The notes beneath the pieces are model-generated. The model had not been told where the DNA came from and did not search any database. It saw nothing but the letters and a program-made list of their open reading frames with translations. From a virus: DNA of 23,672 nucleotides. A program made the position numbers and the translations under genes. The DNA is taken from positions 1-23,672 of the IMG/VR virus record IMGVR_UViG_3300037076_000126; one strand, given 5' to 3'. Positions 6,014 through 22,885 of the stretch are shown piece by piece. Position 1 is the stretch's first letter. Each line of letters starts with the position of its first letter.

Positions 6014-6022
6014 AATTTAGTT

Positions 6023-6051
6023 ATTATATAATTATTTCAAGGAATTGTCAA
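6023..6051 (-). promoter_or_regulatory. Consensus sigma70 promoter giving a nearly leaderless mRNA
   Basis: Minus strand: TTGACA (6051-6046), 17-base spacer, TATAAT (6028-6023), a perfect match to both boxes. Transcription should start near 6016, three bases before the ATG at 6013. The -35 box lies inside the last codons of the endonuclease gene 6037-7353, so that gene was inserted or kept exactly against this promoter. Confidence 0.8.
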
Positions 6052-7353
6052 GTTATTTGATAATATTTCCGATATTTTCTTCATATCCCAATAAGGAATT
6101 CTTAATAATTTAATATTGTTATTTTTAGCATATTCATCCTTACGACGATCATGCTCTTTTGTTTTTAATAACTGGTCTTCTGTTGTTTTAGTTCCTCCAA
6201 AATACCCCTCACCATAATGCTGTTCCCCATCATACTCAATTAATAAATTCTGAGATGGAACGAAAAAATCGTATCTTAATAGTCTATTTCCAATTCCCAC
6301 TAGCCCATTAAATGTTTTCTGGCGTTGATATTCTAACATATTGATGTCTAAATAAACTCTGACTTTATGTTCTCCACTTGATAATTCGCAATATGGACAT
6401 CTACCATCATTTATATGCTCATATGGAATTTTTGAAAATGTTTTGTTGCATGTATTGCATATTATCTGAACTTGTGTATGTGCATTGATATAATTAACCA
6501 GAGAATAATTAAACAATTCTCCATATGTTGAATGTGCAATTTCAATCCATTTATGAGTAGTATATGGAACATTTCCAGCACATATTCCACATCCATGTCC
6601 TAGCAAATGTTGCATTGGCGTTTGTGGAAATTGTATATTACAAGTGCGGCATGTTATAATTACATGTGTGATTGCATTTGTATATTTCACAAATTCATAG
6701 CCATATAAGTCGCCATGTATGTGTTCAGCACGTTTAATAAAGTCAACTACGTTTGAGTGACAATTACCAGCACATTTTGAGCAGCCAATGCCTTGTAGAT
6801 GGTTAGATGCTCTTATATTGAATTCTCCATGTATAGGACAGATTACAATTCCGCTTGATTTTGAATCTGTATATTTAAATTTATGATAAGAATAGAAAAA
6901 GTTATGAATAATATTGGAACGAGTAATAAATTCTTCGATTGTCATTCGCCTGATATTTCCAACGTGTTCTACACTACATAATGGACACCCTTGACCACGA
7001 AGATGGTTTCCGGCCATTTGACTAAATACCGAATTATGAGAAGGACATATAATATCTATATGTGATTTAATATTTTCCCACTTGACTAAATCATATTTAT
7101 ATTTATTATTATGTATATTATTAGATTTAATTATAAATGTATCTAATGTATACGGCACATGATTAGAACACGCTGGACATCCAATGCCTTGCAGATGGTT
7201 AGATGCTCTTATATTGAATTCTCCGTGATATGGGCATATAACAATTCCTTTAGTATGCGAATCTACATAAATAAAATTGCCATAAGAATAGAAAAAGTTA
7301 TGTTCGATATTTGCTTTATCTATATATTCCGTCTGTGTTAATGGCTTACTCAT
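6037..7353 (-). CDS. Homing endonuclease with zinc-ribbon repeats and an EDxHD (Vsr-like) nuclease domain
   Basis: A 438-residue free-standing endonuclease. Residues about 36-325 hold five repeats, each with paired CxxC or CxxH sites around a pattern like ICPxHGEFNIRxxNHLxGxGCPxC, the DUF723-type DNA-binding zinc ribbon known from phage homing enzymes. Residues about 325-430 form a Vsr-like nuclease: Glu328 (SSGEHK), Asp362 (RYDFF), Glu373 and Asp375 (LIEYDGEQHY), His379 and Asp402, matching the EDxHD family. The protein ends KLLRIPYWDMKKISEIL, a tail also found as a remnant after the polymerase gene. It lies between a glycosyltransferase and a P-loop gene. A structured 5' region at 7357-7450 precedes the ATG, with no Shine-Dalgarno, which suggests translational control. 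Confidence 0.85.
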   Translation of the reverse strand: MSKPLTQTEYIDKANIEHNFFYSYGNFIYVDSHTKGIVICPYHGEFNIRASNHLQGIGCPACSNHVPYTLDTFIIKSNNIHNNKYKYDLVKWENIKSHIDIICPSHNSVFSQMAGNHLRGQGCPLCSVEHVGNIRRMTIEEFITRSNIIHNFFYSYHKFKYTDSKSSGIVICPIHGEFNIRASNHLQGIGCSKCAGNCHSNVVDFIKRAEHIHGDLYGYEFVKYTNAITHVIITCRTCNIQFPQTPMQHLLGHGCGICAGNVPYTTHKWIEIAHSTYGELFNYSLVNYINAHTQVQIICNTCNKTFSKIPYEHINDGRCPYCELSSGEHKVRVYLDINMLEYQRQKTFNGLVGIGNRLLRYDFFVPSQNLLIEYDGEQHYGEGYFGGTKTTEDQLLKTKEHDRRKDEYAKNNNIKLLRIPYWDMKKISEILSNNLTIP

Positions 7354-7356
7354 AAT

Positions 7357-7450
7357 CTGTCAGTGCCTTTTAATTTTAAATAGGAATACTACCTTAACCA
7401 TGAACTGCTTTGTTGGCACTGACAGTTGGTTGTAGTGGTAGTATTCCTAT
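7357..7450 (-). promoter_or_regulatory. Candidate H-type RNA pseudoknot in the leader of an endonuclease gene
   Basis: Two perfect inverted repeats are interleaved. Arm A, CTGTCAGTGCC (7357-7367), is complementary to GGCACTGACAG (7415-7425). Arm B, ATAGGAATACTACC (7380-7393), is complementary to GGTAGTATTCCTAT (7437-7450). The order A-B-A'-B' cannot form nested hairpins but is exactly the H-type pseudoknot order. In the minus-strand RNA the stems are 14 and 11 bp with loops of 11, 21 and 12 bases, the last being A/U only. The final arm ends three bases before the ATG of the endonuclease (7353), covering the ribosome-binding region. A near copy of part of arm A (TGTCAATGCC, 7471-7480) lies further upstream. 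No known riboswitch class was recognised. Confidence 0.7.
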
Positions 7451-7510
7451 AAATTGTTTCTTAGTTATAATGTCAATGCCTTATATTATACATATAAGCA
7501 AAGATAAGAA

Positions 7511-8845
7511 TTATTCAATCTTTTTTAAGGAAGGAAGTTGTATACGTTTTAATTTAGGAAGCACTATAGTCGATGCACGAGGAATCTCTGGTATATACTT
7601 GTCCAATAACTCAAATAGTCTTTCTTCCATTTTCTTTAGATTAAACTTTCCCCTATTCTCCATTCCTAATTTAATTGCTTTATCAATCCTTTCTTGAGAA
7701 TAGTTAAAGAAATAATCTTTCATTTTTTCCGATGCTTTAGCATAATCAACCTCGAACCATTTACTACCGGAAATGATCCATGAATTTACACTTTCTGGAT
7801 GAACATCTACCAACTTACCTTCGAAAAAGTCAGCGTATTTTTCATCCATAAAGTCTAGTTGACCAGAATGTTTTGGAAGCAGTGTCGGTTTTAATGCAAA
7901 TGTAGATGCTAATGAGGAACCGCCCCACGATTCCCCGAATGTGAATGATAAAAATACTTTTACCTTTTCACAAGAATGTAAATATACCATTTCCTTTTCA
8001 CTTAATTGGCCATAAAACAGGTAAATATTTGGGAGTTTAACATTACCACCCAATTGATTCTTAACCATGTTAGTAATCTCATTTAACTTATTGATACACT
8101 CGTGACGATCAACCGTTCCAACTAAAGGTCCATTAGTTTTCAATATTAAACATGGAGGATTATCAATTCCGGCAAATGTTTTGAGGAATGTTTCAATTAA
8201 TTTACCGGTATTTTTTCTATCACTATTCATATTACCACCCCACATACCACTATAGAAAAATGCAAAGGTTTCAGGAATTTTTGCTAATTCTTCATCAATA
8301 GAAGATACTGGCTCAATATTAGCAAATAATTTATCATCTTGTCCCCACATTAAAGTTTCAATTGGTTTATTTAAGACCAATTTTTCACTTGAACCATTAG
8401 GATTCTTTTTAAGATATTCTGTCTTAGTAGCAACTTCTTTATTAAATTCTGACATTAATATATTTAAATTCATATTATTGGAACCTTCGATGAATGTGGC
8501 AGGATACTGGGTAGTCTCTATACCCGCAGAAATTCCAATATTAACATTACCATTAGGTTTAAAGTCGCACGGTAAAGAAATCTGACACCACACGTCGGGT
8601 TTCTTATTTAAATTTTCTCTTAGAATTAATTGTATTAATTCCATTGTTTCTGGATCAGATGCTAACTCATTTATATCACGATTTGAGCAGCTTCCCCATT
8701 GATAAGGTATAAGTTTTAAATTCCAATCTTTCTTCTTACAATACTTGTTGATTATTTTTGCAATTTCTAATGAATATCGGCCATAGCCGCTTGAATTTAG
8801 AGCTGGAGATTGTAAAACTACTAATGGTTTGTTGTTATTTATCAT
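7511..8845 (-). CDS. Glycosyltransferase, GT-B fold (GT4-like)
   Basis: A full-length 444-residue GT-B enzyme. The N-domain starts VVLQSPALNSSGYGRYSLEIAK, with the Ser/Gly loop after the first strand. The C-domain starts near FAFFYSGMWGGNMNSDRKNTGKLIETF, where the Arg-Lys after the strand is in the usual diphosphate-binding place. The signature region is LSFTFGESWGGSSLASTFALKPTLLP (about residues 299-323), with Glu305 as the first acidic residue of the E-x7-E motif and the second replaced. The C-terminus is a basic tail (LKRIQLPSLKKIE). The gene is flanked on both sides by homing endonuclease genes, with only two bases between its ATG and the stop of 8848-9579. Confidence 0.75.
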   Translation of the reverse strand: MINNNKPLVVLQSPALNSSGYGRYSLEIAKIINKYCKKKDWNLKLIPYQWGSCSNRDINELASDPETMELIQLILRENLNKKPDVWCQISLPCDFKPNGNVNIGISAGIETTQYPATFIEGSNNMNLNILMSEFNKEVATKTEYLKKNPNGSSEKLVLNKPIETLMWGQDDKLFANIEPVSSIDEELAKIPETFAFFYSGMWGGNMNSDRKNTGKLIETFLKTFAGIDNPPCLILKTNGPLVGTVDRHECINKLNEITNMVKNQLGGNVKLPNIYLFYGQLSEKEMVYLHSCEKVKVFLSFTFGESWGGSSLASTFALKPTLLPKHSGQLDFMDEKYADFFEGKLVDVHPESVNSWIISGSKWFEVDYAKASEKMKDYFFNYSQERIDKAIKLGMENRGKFNLKKMEERLFELLDKYIPEIPRASTIVLPKLKRIQLPSLKKIE

Positions 8846-8847
8846 AT

Positions 8848-9579
8848 TTATTTTATTTTTAATTCTTTTTCTGTTATTACTTTAAATTTATATCCGTTGA
8901 TTTTACAAAATTTTTCGGCGGCAACTATCTTCGTATATGCATTTTTATAATTCTTTTGTATGCTTTTCATAGGTTTGACCTCTTCTATAAGAGTATCACC
9001 AATCAAAAAATCTGGTATATAATGTCGCAACTTTCCTTCGTCATCGTTGTATGGGATTGCAATTTTATGTCGCTTTGTCCACATAATTCCAAGTTCATCC
9101 AATTGATTCATACGTATCAATTCATATGAACTAGCATAATATTCTGATTTTCCCGATAATTTAGAAGTATAATATCCAGTTTTATAGAATTTAGACCCAC
9201 ACAATCCAAGACTTGCTTTGTGGAGATTTCCGCACATAGGAGAGCAAAATCTCTTGGTTTCTTTTTTCTGAGCATAAAAACTTAAATTACACCATTCACA
9301 TTCTTTCATAGTTCCAGTTCTGGGTCTTGGTGGGTTTGTGTGTTGCCATTTAAACTTACATGTATTTGAGCAGAAGTGATAGTTTGACCTATTTTTATCC
9401 GATTTACATTTTAATAGTTGTAAATTACACCCATGACACATAACAATGTCCATATTTTTATGGATATATTCAGTATAACATTTTTTACAGCAAAATTTTC
9501 CATATCCTTGGAGAACGATATATTTTTTAATATAAAATATATTTTCGCAATTTTTACATGATCGTTTTATCTTTGCCAT
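8848..9579 (-). CDS. Homing endonuclease-like protein, Cys-rich N-domain plus PD-(D/E)xK nuclease
   Basis: A 243-residue protein. Residues 1-120 carry at least four CxxC-type pairs (CKNC, CCKKC, CHGC, CEWC, FCSPMC), expected to bind zinc and DNA. The second half is a PD-(D/E)xK nuclease: Glu153 in SSYELIRMNQLDELGI, then YIPDFLIGDTLIEEVKP with Pro-Asp at 189-190 and Glu200-Val-Lys202, similar to TnsA-like and phage mobile endonucleases. It ends VITEKELK, shared with its paralogue at 12595-13347. It follows a ribbon-helix-helix gene by one base and precedes a glycosyltransferase by two bases, a typical site for an intronless mobile endonuclease. Confidence 0.75.
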   Translation of the reverse strand: MAKIKRSCKNCENIFYIKKYIVLQGYGKFCCKKCYTEYIHKNMDIVMCHGCNLQLLKCKSDKNRSNYHFCSNTCKFKWQHTNPPRPRTGTMKECEWCNLSFYAQKKETKRFCSPMCGNLHKASLGLCGSKFYKTGYYTSKLSGKSEYYASSYELIRMNQLDELGIMWTKRHKIAIPYNDDEGKLRHYIPDFLIGDTLIEEVKPMKSIQKNYKNAYTKIVAAEKFCKINGYKFKVITEKELKIK

Positions 9580-9580
9580 A

Positions 9581-9706
9581 TTATTTCTTAATTTCTTTAA
9601 TTATTATGTTTTCAATAAACCAATTAATTTTAATACCTCGTTCATCGCAATATTTCTTTAATTGCTCGTAAACTTCGGATTTAATGTTAATTGTATTTCG
9701 CTTCAT
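9581..9706 (-). CDS. Small ribbon-helix-helix DNA-binding protein
   Basis: A 41-residue ORF (MKRNTINIKSEVYEQLKKYC then DERGIKINWFIENIIIKEIKK). The pattern of a short beta strand with alternating polar residues (NTINIKS), a first helix (EVYEQLKKYCDERG) and a second helix (INWFIENIIIKEI) is that of Arc/CopG-type proteins, which bind DNA as dimers with the strand in the major groove. The stop lies one base before the ATG of the endonuclease at 8848-9579, so the two form a unit; a second pair of the same kind is at 16030-16194/14924-16033. It may repress its own promoter or the endonuclease. This is inferred from the family and the arrangement. Confidence 0.65.
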   Translation of the reverse strand: MKRNTINIKSEVYEQLKKYCDERGIKINWFIENIIIKEIKK

Positions 9707-9713
9707 AATAATA

Positions 9714-9747
9714 AGTATATGTAAGAATGTTTAAATGCTCATAAATG
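9714..9747 (-). promoter_or_regulatory. Possible -10 box and operator-like repeats upstream of the RHH gene
   Basis: Minus-strand TATACT (9719-9714) sits eight bases before the ATG at 9706, the same distance as the stronger promoters in this window, but no good -35 is seen at 16-18 bases. Just upstream on the plus strand are three AATG elements at 9726-9729, 9734-9737 and 9744-9747, the last two 10 bp apart (one helical turn). Ribbon-helix-helix proteins often bind such short repeats, so autoregulation is possible. In AT-rich DNA this may be chance. Confidence 0.3.
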
Positions 9748-9761
9748 TTCAATTATTTTTA

Positions 9762-11514: not shown

Positions 11515-12219
11515 TTAGTCGGTTAATTGAATCGTATCGATTAATTTTAAACATTCTGCCGGTATATTTGATAAAGTAAATACTCCTCCATTATAATTGA
11601 CATCCTTAAAGTATCTAACATACTGATTATAATCATATAACATAGAAGCATCCAATTCCCATACATCATACGGTATATTTTTCTTAGTGCGTCTTACTAT
11701 AGATTTAACTATATTTCTAACTTTACCTTTATCAAATACAAAATAAATTCTGGCTGGATGTTTTGATATTTTTTCTTTATTTTTAGGACATAACCCAATA
11801 TGTTCTATTTTTTCTCTATTAATCGATGGTGAAACGTGATATAATATTTTATAAGAATCATATTGTTCCGTTGGATAATTTGCTTCTAATTGAAGGGTGA
11901 ATATTTGTCGCTGTTCTTCTATGAATTTATTAGCATCAAATTTCTCCCACTTTCCATTTTTTAATTGTCCCGATATATACCAACCCAACGCATTAATATG
12001 TTCTTGTATATGTTGGATAGTAGATTTTGAAAGTGGACGTGATATTTTTAAATCAACATATATTTTATCATTTGACTCACGAACATCAAAATCTCCATCT
12101 CGAAACCACCATGCTAAATTATGAGCGGCTTCTTTCGTTCCGACTGATTTAGTTAATAATTCGTAGATCATATGATCCGTATCAATTCCGCTTGTTTTTA
12201 ATTTTCTTTTTATTTGCAT
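11515..12219 (-). CDS. Protein with a possible ADP-ribosyltransferase-like C-terminal domain
   Basis: A 234-residue protein. The C-terminal half begins KILYHVSPSINREKIEHIGL, then KHPARIYFVFD, VWELDAS and finally IPAECLKLID. The order LYHxS, RIYF and a closing xPAExLKL resembles the ART fold (ADP-ribosyltransferases and the KptA/Tpt1 type), in which the His and Tyr sit at the NAD site; the third catalytic residue is not certain. The first 110 residues (WWFRDGDFDVRES, LGWYISGQ) are unrecognised. If active it might modify a host protein or nucleic acid, but this rests on short motifs. It overlaps the P-loop gene upstream by ten bases. Confidence 0.45.
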   Translation of the reverse strand: MQIKRKLKTSGIDTDHMIYELLTKSVGTKEAAHNLAWWFRDGDFDVRESNDKIYVDLKISRPLSKSTIQHIQEHINALGWYISGQLKNGKWEKFDANKFIEEQRQIFTLQLEANYPTEQYDSYKILYHVSPSINREKIEHIGLCPKNKEKISKHPARIYFVFDKGKVRNIVKSIVRRTKKNIPYDVWELDASMLYDYNQYVRYFKDVNYNGGVFTLSNIPAECLKLIDTIQLTD

Positions 12220-12594: not shown

Positions 12595-13347
12595 TTATTT
12601 TAACTCTTTCTCCGTTATTATTCTATATTGATAATTATTTAATTTACAATATTCAATGGCGGCATCATATTTCAAATTGTTATTATCAACTTTACTCTTT
12701 ACTAAATTACTCGGTTTAACTTCTTCAATTATATTACTACCAACTAGAAAATCAGGAACGTAATTTCTCGTATTCCCAACTGGATCAACGTAGGGAATTC
12801 TAATTCCATGCTTCTTCGTCCATTTAATATTTAAATTATCCAATTGTTTCATTCTTTTTTCTTCATATGATGATCCAAACCATTCATCGTTACCTGTTAC
12901 AGTTGAATGATGCCATCCCTGCTTATAGAAATTACGTTTAGGATTGCATTTTCCTTCAGCTATTAATTTAGAACGAGAAAGGGACATATTAGGATTATAT
13001 TTTCCTCGCTTAAATTGTCCGGCACATTGTATCGAACAACATTTCTGAGTTACATGGCACTTTTTAGTATAAAACACTGTATTACAAAAGGCACATGTTT
13101 TATATTCTCCTAATTGTTGAGTCTTTCTCAAGTATTCTTTCCGACATTGTTTAGAGCAGTATTTATTAGCATCTATTAATAGTTGACTGTGCTGAGTTGA
13201 TGTGAACTCTTTATTACAGCATAAACAATTCTTTGTTCGGTTGAATCTGTTATATGGCAATTTTAATGATTTGTGATAACAACTATGAGAACAATATTTT
13301 CTGGATGATTTTATATCCATGTTACATGTTTTACATTTATTATTCAC
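12595..13347 (-). CDS. Homing endonuclease-like protein, paralogue of 8848-9579
   Basis: A 250-residue protein with the same plan as 8848-9579. The Cys-rich half has pairs CKTC, CLCC, CSKQC, CAFC, CCSIQC. The nuclease half has SSYEEKRMKQLDNLNIKWTK, then YVPDFLVGSNIIEEVKP with Pro-Asp at 198-199 and Glu209-Val-Lys211, and ends RIITEKELK. The two proteins match closely in the nuclease half and diverge in the zinc half, as expected for enzymes that have changed target. The start is a GTG that overlaps the TGA of the glycosyltransferase fragment upstream (GTGA), so translation is coupled to it. Unlike its paralogue it has no ribbon-helix-helix partner. Confidence 0.75.
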   Translation of the reverse strand: MNNKCKTCNMDIKSSRKYCSHSCYHKSLKLPYNRFNRTKNCLCCNKEFTSTQHSQLLIDANKYCSKQCRKEYLRKTQQLGEYKTCAFCNTVFYTKKCHVTQKCCSIQCAGQFKRGKYNPNMSLSRSKLIAEGKCNPKRNFYKQGWHHSTVTGNDEWFGSSYEEKRMKQLDNLNIKWTKKHGIRIPYVDPVGNTRNYVPDFLVGSNIIEEVKPSNLVKSKVDNNNLKYDAAIEYCKLNNYQYRIITEKELK

Positions 13348-14923: not shown

Positions 14924-16033
14924 TTATTTATTGATTAATTCTCCTTTTCTGTTAAATATCATTTTTCTATAGTTATATCCGGCATCGATAACGGCGGCTT
15001 CCTTTAAATTTAGATATTTTGTGGTTTTATTTGTCCAATCCGACTTAACCTCGACTATTAAATTGTCTTTTTTGATATATGCATCTGGATAATATCGACG
15101 AGATATTCCGTCTGGGGAGGTGTAACGTAATATGGGCATATCCTTATAAGACGTTGTTATATCATGTTCCGAATAAGTTTTAAGTAATTCATCTAAGCCA
15201 AATGGTTCATATCCTTGGACTTTAATGATCTTACCGGATGGCAAAGTATAAGATTTTCGTTGATGTGCTGCTTTTTGTTGTTTTAATATAATTTCTGGAC
15301 AGTGCATCGGACTTGATACTCCGTAGTTTTTAAGGCATGTTTGTCTTGATTTCTCTTTAACTTCTTCTGTCTGATTGGCGTTCTCCACTCCATATTTTCG
15401 CAAACACGTTTGTCTTGATTTTTCTTTAATTTCCGGAACTTGAAACCCATTGCTTACTCCATATTTAAGAAACATTGTATTTTTATATGCGTCAGTCATA
15501 TGCTTTACGTTTTCTTCAGATTCCCATCTTTTTGACGTAAGTCTGGACATATTTTTAAGCCTGTCATCTGTTTCCTTAGTCTGTCCTTTATTCCATATGA
15601 ATCTATTTTTATGTATGTTAGCAATTCTAACGTCAGTTTCTTTAGTTAGGCCGGTGTTCCATTTTGGATCGTGTCTGCATATATAGGTATGATACCCAAT
15701 GTCTAAATTTTTAAATGACGGGGTTCTTCCGCATCCACATTTACAAGTTGGTATATTTCCCAACAATACAAATTCGTTGTAGTAGTTATGTGAAGTCATA
15801 TTATGACATTTATCAAGATGACATGAAAATCTAGTTGCATTTTTAATTATTCTATTGCAAATTTTACATTGATGTGGGGTTTGTTTTGGTGTCCTTGTTC
15901 CGATAGGAGCGGCTGGAAATTGCTTTATATACTCTGCAAGTGTGATATCATGAACACGTTTCAAATGAGAACCATTAACTCTCGTTTTCATATTCAAGCC
16001 ACAAATTTCACATTTTATAAAAATATAATTCAT
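14924..16033 (-). CDS. Homing endonuclease with C2H2/C4 fingers, NUMOD-like repeats and PD-(D/E)xK domain
   Basis: A 369-residue protein. Residues 1-80 contain two zinc fingers (CEICGLNMKTRVNGSHLKRVH and CKICNRIIKNATRFSCHLDKC) and residues 97-120 a further Cys/His cluster. About 185-245 is a three-fold repeat of LKYGVxN...EIKEKSRQTC, typical DNA-recognition repeats of phage mobile endonucleases. The C-terminal domain has GYEPFGLDELL (Glu276), YYPDAYIKKDNLIVEVKSDW (Pro-Asp 316-317, Glu328-Val-Lys330), a PD-(D/E)xK nuclease. Its ATG overlaps the TGA of a ribbon-helix-helix gene. It sits directly before the N-half of the split glycosyltransferase. Confidence 0.8.
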   Translation of the reverse strand: MNYIFIKCEICGLNMKTRVNGSHLKRVHDITLAEYIKQFPAAPIGTRTPKQTPHQCKICNRIIKNATRFSCHLDKCHNMTSHNYYNEFVLLGNIPTCKCGCGRTPSFKNLDIGYHTYICRHDPKWNTGLTKETDVRIANIHKNRFIWNKGQTKETDDRLKNMSRLTSKRWESEENVKHMTDAYKNTMFLKYGVSNGFQVPEIKEKSRQTCLRKYGVENANQTEEVKEKSRQTCLKNYGVSSPMHCPEIILKQQKAAHQRKSYTLPSGKIIKVQGYEPFGLDELLKTYSEHDITTSYKDMPILRYTSPDGISRRYYPDAYIKKDNLIVEVKSDWTNKTTKYLNLKEAAVIDAGYNYRKMIFNRKGELINK

Positions 16034-16194
16034 ACTTTAGTTGGTGTATTATTGCTACTTCCACTAATGGCTTGTCGAATGGCAATCTCAGTAAATCCTG
16101 ATAATTTATAGCCATGTTCCTTGCAAAATTTATGTAAATCTTTACTAATTTCTTCGGAAATTTGTATTGATAATTTGGTATTTTTCTTCTTCAT
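16030..16194 (-). CDS. Ribbon-helix-helix DNA-binding protein
   Basis: A 54-residue protein: MKKKNTKLSIQISEEISKDL, then HKFCKEHGYKLSGFTEIAIR and a polar tail. The strand TKLSIQIS and the helices EEISKDLHKFCKEHG and LSGFTEIAIRQAI match the Arc/CopG pattern, including the small residue-rich turn before helix 2. An upstream in-frame ATG at 16206 would add four residues (MYNG); neither has a Shine-Dalgarno. The TGA overlaps the ATG of the endonuclease 14924-16033, so the two proteins are made together. An imperfect palindrome ACGA-gaaaa-TCGT (16227-16239) upstream may be its operator. Confidence 0.65.
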   Translation of the reverse strand: MKKKNTKLSIQISEEISKDLHKFCKEHGYKLSGFTEIAIRQAISGSSNNTPTKV

Positions 16195-16206
16195 ACCATT
16201 ATACAT

Positions 16207-16312
16207 ATATGCAAAAAATTGAAAACACGAGAAAATCGTAGAAATCTAATATTTATTTTTCAACTCCTCTAAAATATAATAAGTTTACTATGGGATTGTA
16301 TTCTGATATAGT
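16207..16312 (+). promoter_or_regulatory. Divergent promoter region; plus-strand promoter at 16284-16312
   Basis: This gap separates the minus-strand and plus-strand gene blocks. TTTACT (16284-16289, within GTTTACTA, which resembles the T4 early -35) is followed after 17 bases by TATAGT (16307-16312). The start would be at about 16319, the A of the ATG of the nuclease gene, so again leaderless. A second candidate -10, TATAAT at 16275-16280, lacks a good -35. No strong promoter for the minus direction was found. Confidence 0.5.
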
Positions 16313-18558: not shown

Positions 18559-20298
18559 ATGTTTAAAGCAATTTTTAATGATAAATTAAACGGAATCGTG
18601 CATGTGCTTGATGATAGTGATGATCGCTGGCAACAATACCCATCATCTGATTTCCATTATGCTTATAGAAAATCTACTACGGGAACTTTTACATCGATTT
18701 ATGGTGATAAACTTGAAAAAATAACTTCTTTTGATGAAACAGATACCGGCTTATTTGAATCCGATTTAAATATAGAAATGAAGGTATTATTAGATTTGTA
18801 TAAGGGTAATGAAGAAGTCAGTAAAGGCCATAGAATTGTTATTTACGATATTGAAACGTCAACTCTTGGTGGTTTCCCGAATGTAATGCTCGGCGATAAA
18901 GAAATCACAGCCATTGCATTATATGATTATGCAACCGATAAATATTATTCCCTTATTCTTGATAAAGAAAATAAAGTCCAAAATAAAATTGAGGGTAATC
19001 AAACTTTAAGAGCCTTTGAAACGGAAGTTGGATTATTATCTAATTTTCTAACCCTCTGGAGAGAATTAAATCCTACTATAATTTCCGGGTGGAATATTTG
19101 GAACTTCGACGATCCGTATATTTATAATCGAATTAAAGTAGTTCTCGGTAAGAAAGCAACTTATAAATTATCACCTCTAGGAATCGTTTACCAAAATCAA
19201 TTTAATAAAAAATTAGTTATTGGTGGAGTATCTTCTTTGGATTATATCGAATTGTATAAGAAATGGTGCCCCGTGATGAAATCATCATATTCATTAGCCA
19301 GCGTTTCCAATGATGAAGAATTAGAACATCGAAAATTAACTTATAAAGGAAATTTGGATGATTTGTATCGTGATAATATAGAACAGTTTATAAATTACAA
19401 TTTAGTTGACTGTAAAATTATTGTTGACATCGAAAAAAAGTATAAATTCATCGAGCTTGCGATTTCTATTTGTCACAAGGGACATGTGAATTACGAAAGT
19501 TTTCGTATGAGTTCTAGGTGGATTGATGGTGCTATTTTAGATTATCTTCATACTGAGATGAATGTCATCGCCCCAAATAAACCAGCCGAAGGACGCCAAA
19601 ATTATGAAGACATGATTAAATCGGATGAAGAAGGATTTGAAGGTGCGTATGTAAAGGTGCCCCAAGTTGGAATTCATAATGATATAAGCGCACTGGATGT
19701 GCAGTCATTGTATCCGTCGATTATACGCACATTAAATATTAGTCCAGAAACTAAAATTGGCAATATAAAAAACTGGGATTGGGATGAATATAACAATGGT
19801 AATTTAAAAGAAATTCAACTGAATGAAATGGTTTATACTATGGATGAATTTAAGCGTATGATTTCAAATCACACCATGTCAATATCGGGGTGTGGAACGT
19901 GTTATACATTATCAAAGATAGGAGTAATTCCTGCTATATTAACTCAATGGTTTGAAGAACGATTAAAATATAAGAAACTTCAGCACGATTATAATATATC
20001 AGGGGACAAAATTAAAGAAGAATATTATAATTTAATCCAAAATAGGACTAAGGTGTTCCTCAATACATGTTATGGAATTTTGGGCCTACCTATCTTTCGT
20101 TTCTACGACCTCGACAACGCAAAATCTACCACGATTTCTGGGCAAATTATCATTAAAAAATCAGAAGCATTTATCAATGCAAAGTTCCAAGAAAAGTTGG
20201 GTAAGAAATATAAAGTTACATATGAAGACGGGACAAATGAAGTAGTATATAAAAACCAACTCGATCTGAAAGAACGAGGAATAATTATAAACCTATAG
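18559..20298 (+). CDS. 43: DNA polymerase family B, N-terminal part (exonuclease, fingers, motifs A and B)
   Basis: First 579 residues of a T4 gp43-like replicative polymerase. The 3'-5' exonuclease has Exo I YDIETS (Asp97, Glu99), Exo II SGWNIWNFDD (Asn179, Asp184) and Exo III YNLVDC (Tyr280, Asp284). Polymerase motif A is SALDVQSLYPSII (Asp380), motif B is NRTKVFLNTCYGILG (Lys498, Asn502, Tyr505, Gly506). The second catalytic aspartate pair (motif C) is missing because the ORF stops at TAG 20296-20298. It continues, in another frame and from a new ATG at 20309, with the residues leading to YCDTD. The last ~30 residues (KYKVTYEDGTNEVVYKNQ and onward) form a beta-like insertion that seems to be cut in the middle. 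This piece alone cannot polymerise; it must pair with, or be joined to, the rest. Confidence 0.9.
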   Translation: MFKAIFNDKLNGIVHVLDDSDDRWQQYPSSDFHYAYRKSTTGTFTSIYGDKLEKITSFDETDTGLFESDLNIEMKVLLDLYKGNEEVSKGHRIVIYDIETSTLGGFPNVMLGDKEITAIALYDYATDKYYSLILDKENKVQNKIEGNQTLRAFETEVGLLSNFLTLWRELNPTIISGWNIWNFDDPYIYNRIKVVLGKKATYKLSPLGIVYQNQFNKKLVIGGVSSLDYIELYKKWCPVMKSSYSLASVSNDEELEHRKLTYKGNLDDLYRDNIEQFINYNLVDCKIIVDIEKKYKFIELAISICHKGHVNYESFRMSSRWIDGAILDYLHTEMNVIAPNKPAEGRQNYEDMIKSDEEGFEGAYVKVPQVGIHNDISALDVQSLYPSIIRTLNISPETKIGNIKNWDWDEYNNGNLKEIQLNEMVYTMDEFKRMISNHTMSISGCGTCYTLSKIGVIPAILTQWFEERLKYKKLQHDYNISGDKIKEEYYNLIQNRTKVFLNTCYGILGLPIFRFYDLDNAKSTTISGQIIIKKSEAFINAKFQEKLGKKYKVTYEDGTNEVVYKNQLDLKERGIIINL

Positions 20299-20308
20299 AC
20301 TACACAAT

Positions 20309-20731
20309 ATGAAGAAAATAATTAAAATTGAAGAAGTAGAACACGATGATTATGTTCAATACTGCGATACGGATAGTGTGACCGGAGATTGTTTGATTTC
20401 GATCAACGGAATTGAGTCTAAGATAGAAGATATATGGAACACTATAAATACAACAAAAGAAATCGTTGATATTTCGGGTCGATATTACAAATTTCCCACA
20501 TCTACAACATTACCATATTATGATGAGACTAATTCGGTAGTTAAAATGGGTGGTGTGAAGTATATAGAGCGTCACAAAACACGTAAAAAAGTCTTTCTAT
20601 TAAAAACATCTCTTGGAAATTCAATTAAAGTAACGGAAGACCATTCTATAATGATAGTTGATAAAAACGGGAAACTTATTAAAAAGAAGCCAAAAGAATT
20701 AAATAAAGGAGATAAATTGATTTCTATTTGA
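20309..20731 (+). CDS. DNA polymerase middle fragment fused to the N-half of a split intein
   Basis: A 140-residue ORF in two parts. Residues 1-22 end DDYVQYCDTD, the start of polymerase motif C. From Ser23 the sequence is an intein N-half: block A SVTGDCLISING, then a long beta-rich stretch, and block B GNSIKVTEDHSIMI (Thr109, His112). It ends GDKLISI-stop after 118 intein residues, the normal place for a split. Ser1 followed by VTGD is what is seen in archaeal polymerase inteins inserted at the same DTD|S site. The matching C-half is at 21866. The ATG follows the previous stop by ten bases with no Shine-Dalgarno (a GAGGA at 20276-20280 is too far), so reinitiation after the TAG is likely. 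Confidence 0.9.
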   Translation: MKKIIKIEEVEHDDYVQYCDTDSVTGDCLISINGIESKIEDIWNTINTTKEIVDISGRYYKFPTSTTLPYYDETNSVVKMGGVKYIERHKTRKKVFLLKTSLGNSIKVTEDHSIMIVDKNGKLIKKKPKELNKGDKLISI

Positions 20732-20733
20732 TA

Positions 20734-20767
20734 TTTATATAGATACAACACTATGTATCTATATGAA
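20734..20767 (+). promoter_or_regulatory. Hairpin that contains the start codon of the endonuclease gene
   Basis: ATATAGATACA (20737-20747) is perfectly complementary to TGTATCTATAT (20754-20764) across a six-base loop; three more pairs (one G-U) extend the stem to 14 bp, 20734-20747 with 20754-20767. The ATG of the endonuclease (20763-20765) is in the 3' arm, so the initiation region would be closed in a long transcript. There is no U-run, so it is not an intrinsic terminator. Occlusion of an endonuclease start by a hairpin is known for T4 I-TevI. Confidence 0.7.
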
Positions 20768-21890
20768 AACAAAACAACTTAAATTAAAACGTAATCGATT
20801 ACAATATTGTGAGAAACTATTATCTAAAGGATTGACTGAGCGTGAAATAATACCATTACTCAATACTTTCTCGGTAAGAAATAAGAACTATTGGTTAGAG
20901 CGAGATTATTCAATTGAAGAATCGGTCATGATGGCAAGGTCTAGAACGCCAGGAACAATTGAATATTATAAGATATATAAAAATCTATCGGAAGAACAGT
21001 CGAAAAAGGCGGTAATCGAGTATCAGTCTAATAAAGTAAATACATTGGAAAATTTTATTAGGAAACACGGACAAGAAGAAGGAGATAAAAGATTCAAATC
21101 ATATTGCGAAAAGCAAGCGTATTCGAATACTCTAGAATATATGATCAAAAAATATGGAGAAGAAGCCGGAACTAATAAATATTACACAGCCAATAAAAAT
21201 AGAGCAGTTACATTAGAAAACTGTATTAAAAAGCATGGCAATGAACTCGGAGCACAAATTTACAGTAACTATGTTAAGAAGCAGCGGACGAATGGGAAAT
21301 CATTAGAATATTTTATACAAAAACTAGGAAAAGATGCAGGAACATGTAAATATATAACTTTAAATAAACAAAAGGCACAGACATATAATAATTACTTGAT
21401 TAGAAATAATGGAGATGTAGAAAAGGCTGCCGCAGCATTTGATACTTATTGTAAAAACAGATACAATTCAGTTACCACTAAACGTGGAGTTTCTGCTTCA
21501 TCTCAAGATTTCTTTGGAAAATTACATATGGAATTAATTAAGCTTGGTATAGAAAAGATATTCTATGCATCATATAATCAAGAATGGATAATTAATATTA
21601 TAGGTAAGCGAGTAGTATATTTGGATTTCTTTGTTAAGAGTCTAGGTAAAGTTATAGAATATAACGGGGATTATTATCATGCAAATCCGACCAAATTTAA
21701 ATCGACAGATAAAATAAATTGCTATGGAAAGGAGCGTCTGGTAGAATTGGTGTGGAGTGATGAGAAATCACGCTTGGATGATATACGAAGTGTCCCATAT
21801 ATAAAAGATATACTTGTAATATGGGAAGGTGAAGTAAATGATAATGAACATGAGGTTATAAAAAAATGCATACAATTCCTTTTAAAATAG
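20763..21890 (+). CDS. EDxHD (Vsr-like) homing endonuclease between the two split-intein halves
   Basis: A 375-residue free-standing protein. About residues 94-207 hold four tandem repeats of roughly 28 aa with the pattern LExxIxKxGxExGxxxYxxxxxK, probably reading DNA. Residues about 247-355 form a Vsr-like nuclease: Asp288 (VVYLDFF), Glu299 (VIEYNGDYYH), Asp303, His306 and Asp333 (WSDEKSR). This endonuclease class was first described inside fractured genes with split inteins. Its product should cut a polymerase gene lacking the insert and so spread the cassette. The ORF ends 25 bases inside the following intein-C/polymerase ORF (different frame), and its start codon sits in a strong hairpin, so expression is probably limited and coupled. 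Confidence 0.85.
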   Translation: MKTKQLKLKRNRLQYCEKLLSKGLTEREIIPLLNTFSVRNKNYWLERDYSIEESVMMARSRTPGTIEYYKIYKNLSEEQSKKAVIEYQSNKVNTLENFIRKHGQEEGDKRFKSYCEKQAYSNTLEYMIKKYGEEAGTNKYYTANKNRAVTLENCIKKHGNELGAQIYSNYVKKQRTNGKSLEYFIQKLGKDAGTCKYITLNKQKAQTYNNYLIRNNGDVEKAAAAFDTYCKNRYNSVTTKRGVSASSQDFFGKLHMELIKLGIEKIFYASYNQEWIINIIGKRVVYLDFFVKSLGKVIEYNGDYYHANPTKFKSTDKINCYGKERLVELVWSDEKSRLDDIRSVPYIKDILVIWEGEVNDNEHEVIKKCIQFLLK

Positions 21891-22885
21891 ACGAACTAGA
21901 AGAAATTATAGAATTGGGCGAACTGGAAGAATATTTTTATGATATTGGGATGGAAGACACCCCACATACATTCTTTGCTAATGATATTTTAGTTCACAAC
22001 AGTAATTTTTTCTCCATTACGCCCCTATTAAAATGCAATTCTATTTCGGAAGAAGGGAAACAGGAATATTGCATTGACACTACAAAAGAGTTGGCGGCAG
22101 GAATTAATAAGTTGTTCGAGTATATGATGCCGAAGGTATTCAATGTTCCAGCTAGTAAAAATAAGATTAAAATTGTGCCAGATATCATAGCACAAAGAGC
22201 AATATGGTTTTCTAAGAAGCGTTATGCATTATTAACTACTTTCAACTTTGAAACGGGGAAACCTATCAAAGATAAATTGGGAAATGTAGGTAAAATTAAA
22301 ATTAAAGGTGTAGATTCAGTGCGTTCCTCATATGCGCCGAGATTTAGAACATTGCTCACAGAATTAATAGAACAACTGTTAAGGGGTAAAGACACTAGTC
22401 AAATTGACCAAGAAATAATGGAATTTGAAGAAAACATAAATAATCTTGCGCCGGTTGAGTTGTGTAAAACATCATCAATTAAATTTATTAGTATGAAAGG
22501 TGATAAGAATTATAGCAAAGGACGAGAACCATTTGGAACAATAAAAGGATCGCCAGTTACAGCAAAAAGTGGCAATTTCCATAATGATTTATTAAAGATA
22601 TGGAAATTGGATAAGACATATGAGATGATTAAACATGGTGATAAGTGTAAATGGGTGTATTTGATGCCGAATCCATATAATATTGATTCGGTTGCATTTA
22701 GGGGAGATCAATTGGATTCTGAAAAATTGATGGAATTTATTTCAGAATATATAGATAAACAAAAGATTTATACTAAAGAATTAAAAACCAAATTAATTGA
22801 TATATATGCCGCAATTAATAGGAATTTCCCTAATCGTGGGTCTGAATATGCGGCCAAAATATTTAATTTTAATGAAGAGTGGTAA
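21866..22885 (+). CDS. C-half of the split intein fused to the DNA polymerase C-terminal part
   Basis: Residues 1-45 are an intein C-half ending in block F/G: EYFYDIGMEDTPHTFFANDILVHN, with the penultimate His44 and the cyclising Asn45, then Ser46 as the +1 nucleophile. From Ser46 the chain is the rest of a family B polymerase: SNFFSITPLLK completes motif C (ligated YCDTD-SNFF), then FSKKRYALL (Lys-x-Tyr, palm), IKGVDSVRSSYAP and the thumb up to AAKIFNFNEEW. Protein splicing would release a 163-residue mini-intein. Polymerase residues total 579 + 22 + 294 = 895, close to T4 gp43 (898). The start has GAGG ten bases upstream, inside the endonuclease gene that it overlaps. Confidence 0.9.
   Translation: MHTIPFKIDELEEIIELGELEEYFYDIGMEDTPHTFFANDILVHNSNFFSITPLLKCNSISEEGKQEYCIDTTKELAAGINKLFEYMMPKVFNVPASKNKIKIVPDIIAQRAIWFSKKRYALLTTFNFETGKPIKDKLGNVGKIKIKGVDSVRSSYAPRFRTLLTELIEQLLRGKDTSQIDQEIMEFEENINNLAPVELCKTSSIKFISMKGDKNYSKGREPFGTIKGSPVTAKSGNFHNDLLKIWKLDKTYEMIKHGDKCKWVYLMPNPYNIDSVAFRGDQLDSEKLMEFISEYIDKQKIYTKELKTKLIDIYAAINRNFPNRGSEYAAKIFNFNEEW

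Follow-up and report, generated by a model that had tools for sequence, protein, structure and literature searches.

The leader of a homing-type endonuclease gene in a 23,672-nucleotide stretch of viral DNA (the whole stretch is hereafter called the window) is probably not accidental and probably acts as a control switch. Two long helices interleave in this leader, and a near copy of one arm lies further upstream. Judged from sequence, RNA control of nuclease translation is likely, and a switch worked by competing pseudoknots is plausible. The reading we favour, and consider moderately probable, is that a free-standing homing-type endonuclease cassette has this stretch as its 5′ leader, which would control nuclease translation as RNA.

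Architecture of the leader

The endonuclease open reading frame (ORF) is on the minus strand. Read on the plus strand, CTGTCAGTGCC (7357-7367) is the exact complement of 7415-7425 over 11 nt, and ATAGGAATACTACC (7380-7393) is that of 7437-7450 over 14 nt; the arm sequence is A-B-A′-B′, that is, interleaved. In RNA order, which sets the arm names used from here on, the arms run B (7450-7437), A (7425-7415), B′ (7393-7380) and A′ (7367-7357), followed by ATT and ATG. This was the sole interleaved pair with exact arms of at least 10 nt found in the window.

An initial reading made from the letters of the window (the sequence-only reading) had described the two exact arms and their order, an A/U-only last loop and a last arm ending three bases before the start codon. 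All of this is borne out, including the coordinates: the 12-nt loop 3 precedes A′, A′ ends at 7357, and ATT and then ATG (7353-7351) follow. The two interleaved repeats were thus read correctly and incompletely, as a third arm copy, U, was missed; the leader was rightly placed before an endonuclease, and its place within an insertion was missed. With U included, the RNA order of the leader is U-B-A-B′-A′-AUG, and its features are:

7485-7501, minus strand: promoter-like TTGCTTATATGTATAAT, common to the second leader copy (alignment, motif scan); putative promoter
7471-7480, minus strand: U, GGCATTGACA, which nearly repeats the start-proximal arm further upstream; pairs with A
7437-7450, minus strand: B, 5′ arm of the 14-bp stem; exact inverted repeat
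7426-7436, minus strand: loop 1, 11 nt, between B and A
7415-7425, minus strand: A, central arm; complements A′ (exactly) and U (with one G-U)
7394-7414, minus strand: loop 2, 21 nt, between A and B′
7380-7393, minus strand: B′, 3′ arm of the 14-bp stem; exact inverted repeat
7368-7379, minus strand: loop 3, 12 nt, A/U only, between B′ and A′
7357-7367, minus strand: A′, start-proximal arm; 3 nt between arm end and ATG
6037-7353, minus strand: endonuclease ORF, 438 aa, ATG at 7353-7351; PF14311 and PF05265 above cut-off, and PHROGs matches
6014-7510, minus strand: inserted cassette, leader plus endonuclease, flanked by a glycosyltransferase-like gene and the gene that follows it; 3 nt in the relative L012

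U lies upstream of B and matches A′ at 9 of the 10 positions of a 10-mer (shuffle p 0.00015). Its pairing with A comprises 10 pairs, one of them G-U (−15.1 kcal/mol); A-A′, with 11 pairs and −19.9 kcal/mol, is the stronger. Each of the two pairings interleaves with B-B′. The presence of U suggests a switch more than a plain lock.

The leader and the nuclease form one inserted unit. In L012, where the protein of the upstream gene is 72% identical, only 3 nt separate that gene from the orthologue of the next gene, at the place where the window has 7510-6014; by this comparison with an uninterrupted relative, leader and nuclease are a single insertion. The ORF matches phrog_559 ‘HNH endonuclease’ (7e-82) and phrog_9084 ‘homing endonuclease’ (2e-29), and on this similarity the unit is a predicted free-standing homing endonuclease cassette.

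Initiation in the window seems to be independent of Shine-Dalgarno pairing. Of the 22 larger window ORFs, just 1 starts no more than 20 nt from an AGGA, GGAG or GAGG, and pairing beside the AUG should accordingly matter. The endonuclease start has none of the three within that distance.

Scans for sigma-70-type promoters found none in window 7340-7640; ahead of the third leader, described below, the correct strand has none either. TATAAT is common to both homologous leaders just before U, and if this box is a promoter, U would lie at or near the 5′ end of the transcript. The T4-type late promoter TATAAATA, which may not be the promoter type of this phage, is absent from the minus strand of 7353-7520. 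Several genes of the window, G001 and G002 have a TTGCnTATATnTATAAT-like motif near their starts, with 4 window matches against 1.0 expected (at most 2 mismatches); the sites of this motif include window 7485-7501 and 16198-16214 (both minus strand), L044 8901 and 11235, and L041 2214 and 19245.

Further nuclease-like insert candidates in the window lie at 8848-9579, 12595-13347 and 14924-16033 (minus strand), all within 23.7 kb; two have TnsA-like N-terminal domains (PF08722) and one is a DUF7487 protein (PF24308). Two other nuclease-like ORFs are preceded by a small ORF instead of a structured leader (9580-9761 and 16030-16200, minus strand). One of these small ORFs matches PF10723 (RepB-RCR_reg, E 6e-5); the other, like the small ORF before the L002 nuclease, gave no match above cut-off. 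L003 and L007 likewise have a small ORF, by eye. A family B DNA polymerase (18559-22885, plus strand) is split across several ORFs, and its interruptions at 20309-20731 and 20763-21890 are intein- and endonuclease-like by eye.

Tests against chance

A chance origin of the window leader is excluded. Scored in bits, with arms weighted by base composition, the window pair reaches 52.2; among 300 second-order Markov copies of the window (7.1 Mb) the highest score is 40.3. Of 200 first-order copies, 2 contained an interleaved pair in which each arm was at least 11 nt long. The judgement of the sequence-only reading that chance was very unlikely stands. For the second contig, G002, 25 second-order Markov copies (3.47 Mb) produced nothing at 44 bits or more. 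Scores of 44-46 bits do occur in real phage DNA as simple sequence: the 190-kb Microcystis phage Mel-JY01 has two such places, made of poly-C/poly-G and AT runs and away from annotated starts, and further interleaved pairs of up to 42.0 bits.

A homologous leader before a different nuclease

One further leader, in G002 (138,917 bases), came from scanning viral contigs for the pattern. It is 88% identical to the window leader over 136 query positions and includes U (exact GGCACTGACA) as well as the upstream TTGCTTATATnTATAAT. The ATG 2 nt beyond the end of its A′ opens another ORF, 224 aa long, which has no Pfam family at cut-off and matches PHROGs named endonuclease and HNH endonuclease, together with annotated phage HNH genes. 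Besides the leader, the only tblastx similarity above 60 bits between the window and G002 is one homolog of the window nuclease at another place in G002.

The arms have been conserved. Between the two copies the four arms have 0 substitutions in 50 positions, and the rest of the sequence between U and A′ has 10 in 58 aligned positions, plus 6 gaps (Fisher p 0.0016 for substitutions, 5e-5 with gaps included). U differs at 1 of 10 positions, by a change that retains a G-U pair. The loops are partly conserved.

The two phages may have more in common than the leader and one nuclease. The proteins of window 11515-12219 and L038:5873-6625 (both minus strand) are alike by eye in their second halves (HVSPSINREKIEHIGL and HITPYQRRENIENIGL), with no tblastx match above 60 bits between them.

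A third leader with unrelated arms

A letter-blind scan of G002 for interleaved arms led to the third leader:

L039:2337-2437: U AGCGTAGAA, B AATTCCCTAATAAG, A TTCTACGCTT, B′, A′ AAGCGTAGAA, aactt, ATG

The layout U-B-A-B′-A′-ATG is the same and the arm sequences are unrelated. U is here an exact 9-nt copy, which was reached in 0 of 20,000 shuffles, and loop 2 is 2 nt long (21 nt in the window leader). A′ ends 5 nt before the ATG of a 129-aa ORF that matches part of the profile of PF02945, endonuclease VII. The larger ORFs beside this leader run in the opposite direction, and it is preceded by two small ORFs on the plus strand (60 and 66 aa); its promoter is probably, not certainly, close by.

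G002 also holds an orphan pair of exact interleaved arms of 13 and 14 nt (L040:2736-2834, that is G002:82736-82834; 49.9 bits), with no nuclease ORF downstream on either strand. In its minus-strand reading a partial U of 8 nt precedes it (p 0.016). The orphan may be a remnant, or an unrelated structured RNA or something else.

Specificity and distribution

Nuclease leaders head the ranking of ORF leaders in these three contigs. When the 130 nt before each ATG-started ORF of at least 90 aa in the window, G001 and G002 were scored (255 leaders; G-U and one mismatch allowed), the three nuclease leaders came out on top with 64, 62 and 56, and the fourth, before a gene that is RNase H-like by eye, scored 45. 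Among 2465 distinct ORF leaders in the other loci (that is, apart from L001, L012-L045, L052 and L132, the loci of the window, G001 and G002), none reaches 56, six reach 50 and the best is 55; both counts concern ATG-started ORFs of at least 90 aa with at least 130 nt upstream.

The interleaved element is rare, even among nuclease leaders. Only two of 106 distinct leaders of nuclease relatives reach 56, both of them G002's own, and the best of the other 104 has 47.5; the 106 come from 138 loci after setting aside one without an ATG, six with less than 150 nt upstream and 25 duplicate leaders. Across 128 loci from two nuclease queries (606 kb), scores of at least 44 occur only in L052 and L132, which are G002 itself; L146 follows with 43.7. 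Seven further viral records (1.1 Mb) gave 42.6 at best and no further member. Ten viral relatives of the window nuclease (L002-L011) have no interleaved pair of at least 38 bits in the fetched stretches, and six stretches of phage-collection records with related nucleases have no score of 37 or more. Two leader queries against the DNA of the phage collection returned short, weak matches only (E 0.1 or worse). Genome contigs contained no match to the pattern; nine stretches fit the peptide pattern, none of them a relative. Rfam 15 at gathering score has no match in the window and, in L039, L040, L041, L043 and L044, two tRNAs and nothing else.

Several candidates were discarded. A search model built from sequence only, without structure, gave two weak matches in 30 viral records (E 0.004 and 0.04); a weak match of this model at L040:12142-12193 was dropped on inspection. 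In viral contigs the exact A-A′ pattern turned up in the known copy and in L034 and L035, with the same arms; the one in L034, inside a 718-aa ORF, was read as chance, as was a B-arm match in G001 inside an ORF (L012 1056-1499). A candidate at L038:5167-5322 (41.9 bits) also lies inside an ORF. Of three places inspected in the seven further viral records, the one in L215 likewise falls within an ORF, and that in L209 stands 29 nt upstream of an ORF that by eye is not nuclease-like. The third, in L193 (39.0 bits), 34 nt before an ORF that is GIY-YIG-like by eye, is a strong hairpin with a T run after it, terminator-like, with a crossing arm of only 7 nt.

Start-adjacent inverted repeats are more frequent before nucleases. 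In the loci examined, exact inverted repeats of at least 11 nt ending at most 12 nt from the ATG are present in 7 of the 107 distinct nuclease leaders, compared with 4 of the 2648 leaders of other ORFs (Fisher p 3e-8, in a count where related sequences are not independent). The seven are those of the window, the G002 HNH gene, L145, L135, L004, L109 and L166. L145 and L135, relatives of the G002 HNH gene, have plain hairpins of 14 and 13 bp flush with the ATG. Perfect repeats of 11-14 bp were seen 0-2 nt from the ATG of nuclease-frame ORFs at L145:2300-2530, L135:2380-2540, L004:2900-3020, L109 before 1515 and L166 before 2432; the hairpin loops of L145 and L135 are AT-rich, and L109 has AGGAGAG within its 3′ arm.

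Folding and proposed mechanism

Prefix folding places U first. As long as the 3′ end of the transcript is at A or within loop 2, A pairs with U in all three leaders (10, 10 and 8 pairs), and B-B′ dominates once B′ is present. At full length the nested optimum of ViennaRNA has B-B′ and a small inner hairpin instead of A-A′; the program does not score pseudoknots, and A-A′ can be added only as one. With A′ ending 3, 2 and 5 nt from the ATG in the three leaders, pairing can reach the translation start.

We propose that the leader RNA would control the timing of nuclease translation. During transcription U would take A first, leaving A′ and the AUG open; B′ and then A′ would arrive and displace the U-A pairing, giving the closed state. 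In the finished RNA, B-B′ and A-A′ would together form an H-type pseudoknot whose last helix stands 3 nt before the AUG, and initiation would be blocked. Each transcript may thus be open briefly and then shut, or a factor favouring one of the two pairings, U-A or A-A′, may tip the balance. In this model the block of initiation by the pseudoknot on the finished RNA is a fairly confident prediction. A U-based switch or timer during transcription is a more tentative part, which we would put a little short of an even chance.

Relation to known systems

Sealing of phage endonuclease starts is known. The starts of T4-type endonuclease genes (I-TevI, II and III, segB and Aeh1 mobE) are described in PMC2988022 as sealed by hairpins, with late promoters so placed that the late, shorter transcripts escape closure. 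The likeness lies in a phage homing endonuclease leader with pairing that reaches the translation start. In that account, however, the structure is a single hairpin over the Shine-Dalgarno site combined with a late promoter, whereas the window leader has two long, exact helices that interleave, a competing upstream arm and no Shine-Dalgarno-like site.

The sequence-only reading had compared the leader with the gene 32 pseudoknot of T4, and the comparison fits poorly. Both are H-type pseudoknots in phage mRNA leaders thought to act on translation. According to PMC3014915, the pseudoknot of T4, T2 and RB69 lies 67 nt upstream of the start and nucleates binding of gp32 over unstructured A+U-rich RNA. 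The window pseudoknot instead abuts the AUG, its last arm ending 3 nt away, and the gene is an endonuclease.

Early local pairing as a timer has precedents in mechanism. As outlined in PMC6582335, pairing near the 5′ end of the MS2 maturation-gene leader delays the final closed fold, and metastable folding sets the timing of hok mRNA. The predicted early U-A pairing would work in a like manner. To our knowledge, neither MS2 nor hok has an endonuclease leader or a pair of pseudoknots with an exactly repeated arm. Another pseudoknot RNA upstream of a nuclease gene is ToxI of type III toxin-antitoxin systems, in which a short pseudoknot is repeated in tandem ahead of an RNase; the window leader, in contrast, is a single copy without tandem repeats, and its ORF matches DNA-endonuclease families.

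Alternative explanations

The sequence-only reading had offered a translational switch or other structured RNA as one option among several, and it is now the best-supported one, with the same layout before three nucleases of different families and, in one case, unrelated arms. It had also named a lack of covariation in relatives as a point that would speak against it. The leaders answer this as far as three cases can: two of the three are homologous, and there is no covariation in the usual aligned sense.

The closest rival is that the pseudoknot merely keeps the nuclease start closed as the T4-type hairpins do, with U a functionless by-product. The start-hiding structures of the T4-type genes (PMC2988022), the plain hairpins flush with the ATG of the L145 and L135 HNH nucleases and the greater strength of A-A′ all fit such a lock, yet it requires neither U nor the interleaved B stem, and U is kept in both homologous leaders and, in other letters, in the third. 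We regard it as unlikely, at perhaps a one-in-several level of belief. The folded leader might instead be an operator bound by the endonuclease, a phage RNA-binding protein or a small molecule, which we find improbable. Loops are partly conserved in the two homologous leaders, and in T4 the proteins gp32 and gp43 act through leader structures as repressors of their own translation (PMC3014915), but a layout common to three nuclease families and two unrelated arm sets, with a loop 2 of 21 nt in the window leader and of 2 nt in the third, makes a common sequence-specific binder unlikely. The suggestion that the arms are a binding site for the endonuclease itself loses appeal on the same grounds of differing nuclease families and unrelated arms.

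A role as DNA, whether as a set of operators, as a site of recombination or insertion or as the target of the nuclease itself, is more improbable still. U, A and A′ are near-identical, alternate in orientation and are nearly evenly spaced (7471, 7415 and 7358), and I-TevI represses itself at a DNA operator (PMC2988022). Two instances nevertheless share layout and ATG position without sharing arm sequence, and two independent DNA inversions, the other origin that had been considered, would not explain the sequence-unrelated instance. We know of no DNA site that requires exact 14-bp interleaved complementarity. That the leader is a by-product of chance or mutation with no role seems very improbable: interleaved repeats do arise in simple sequence, as at 44-46 bits in Mel-JY01, but 0 of 300 window nulls exceeded 40.3 bits, the layout recurs before three nucleases and the arms are conserved.

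Significance

Our preferred reading thus remains RNA control of nuclease translation. The function, sealing of the start, belongs to a class already known; what is new is the interleaved design with its doubly claimed arm. In open-licence papers, searched by title and the beginning of the abstract, we found neither a pseudoknot leader of a homing endonuclease nor a description of the present layout. We suggest, as a possibility that we rate somewhat below the timer itself, a new class of RNA switch on mobile endonuclease cassettes. Two copies of the same partner, the first close to the 5′ end and the second at the start codon, would successively take one central arm, while a second long helix interleaves with both pairings; two mutually exclusive pseudoknots in succession would leave a short window for translation. 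Such a layout could be rebuilt from unrelated letters, and the module could move between nuclease families.

Selfish endonucleases need to be expressed at the right moment without harm to their own phage. If the proposal is true, two competing long pseudoknots would provide compact control by RNA alone. The layout would offer a test system for the co-transcriptional folding of long, exact pseudoknots, and a sequence-independent signature by which further members may be found.
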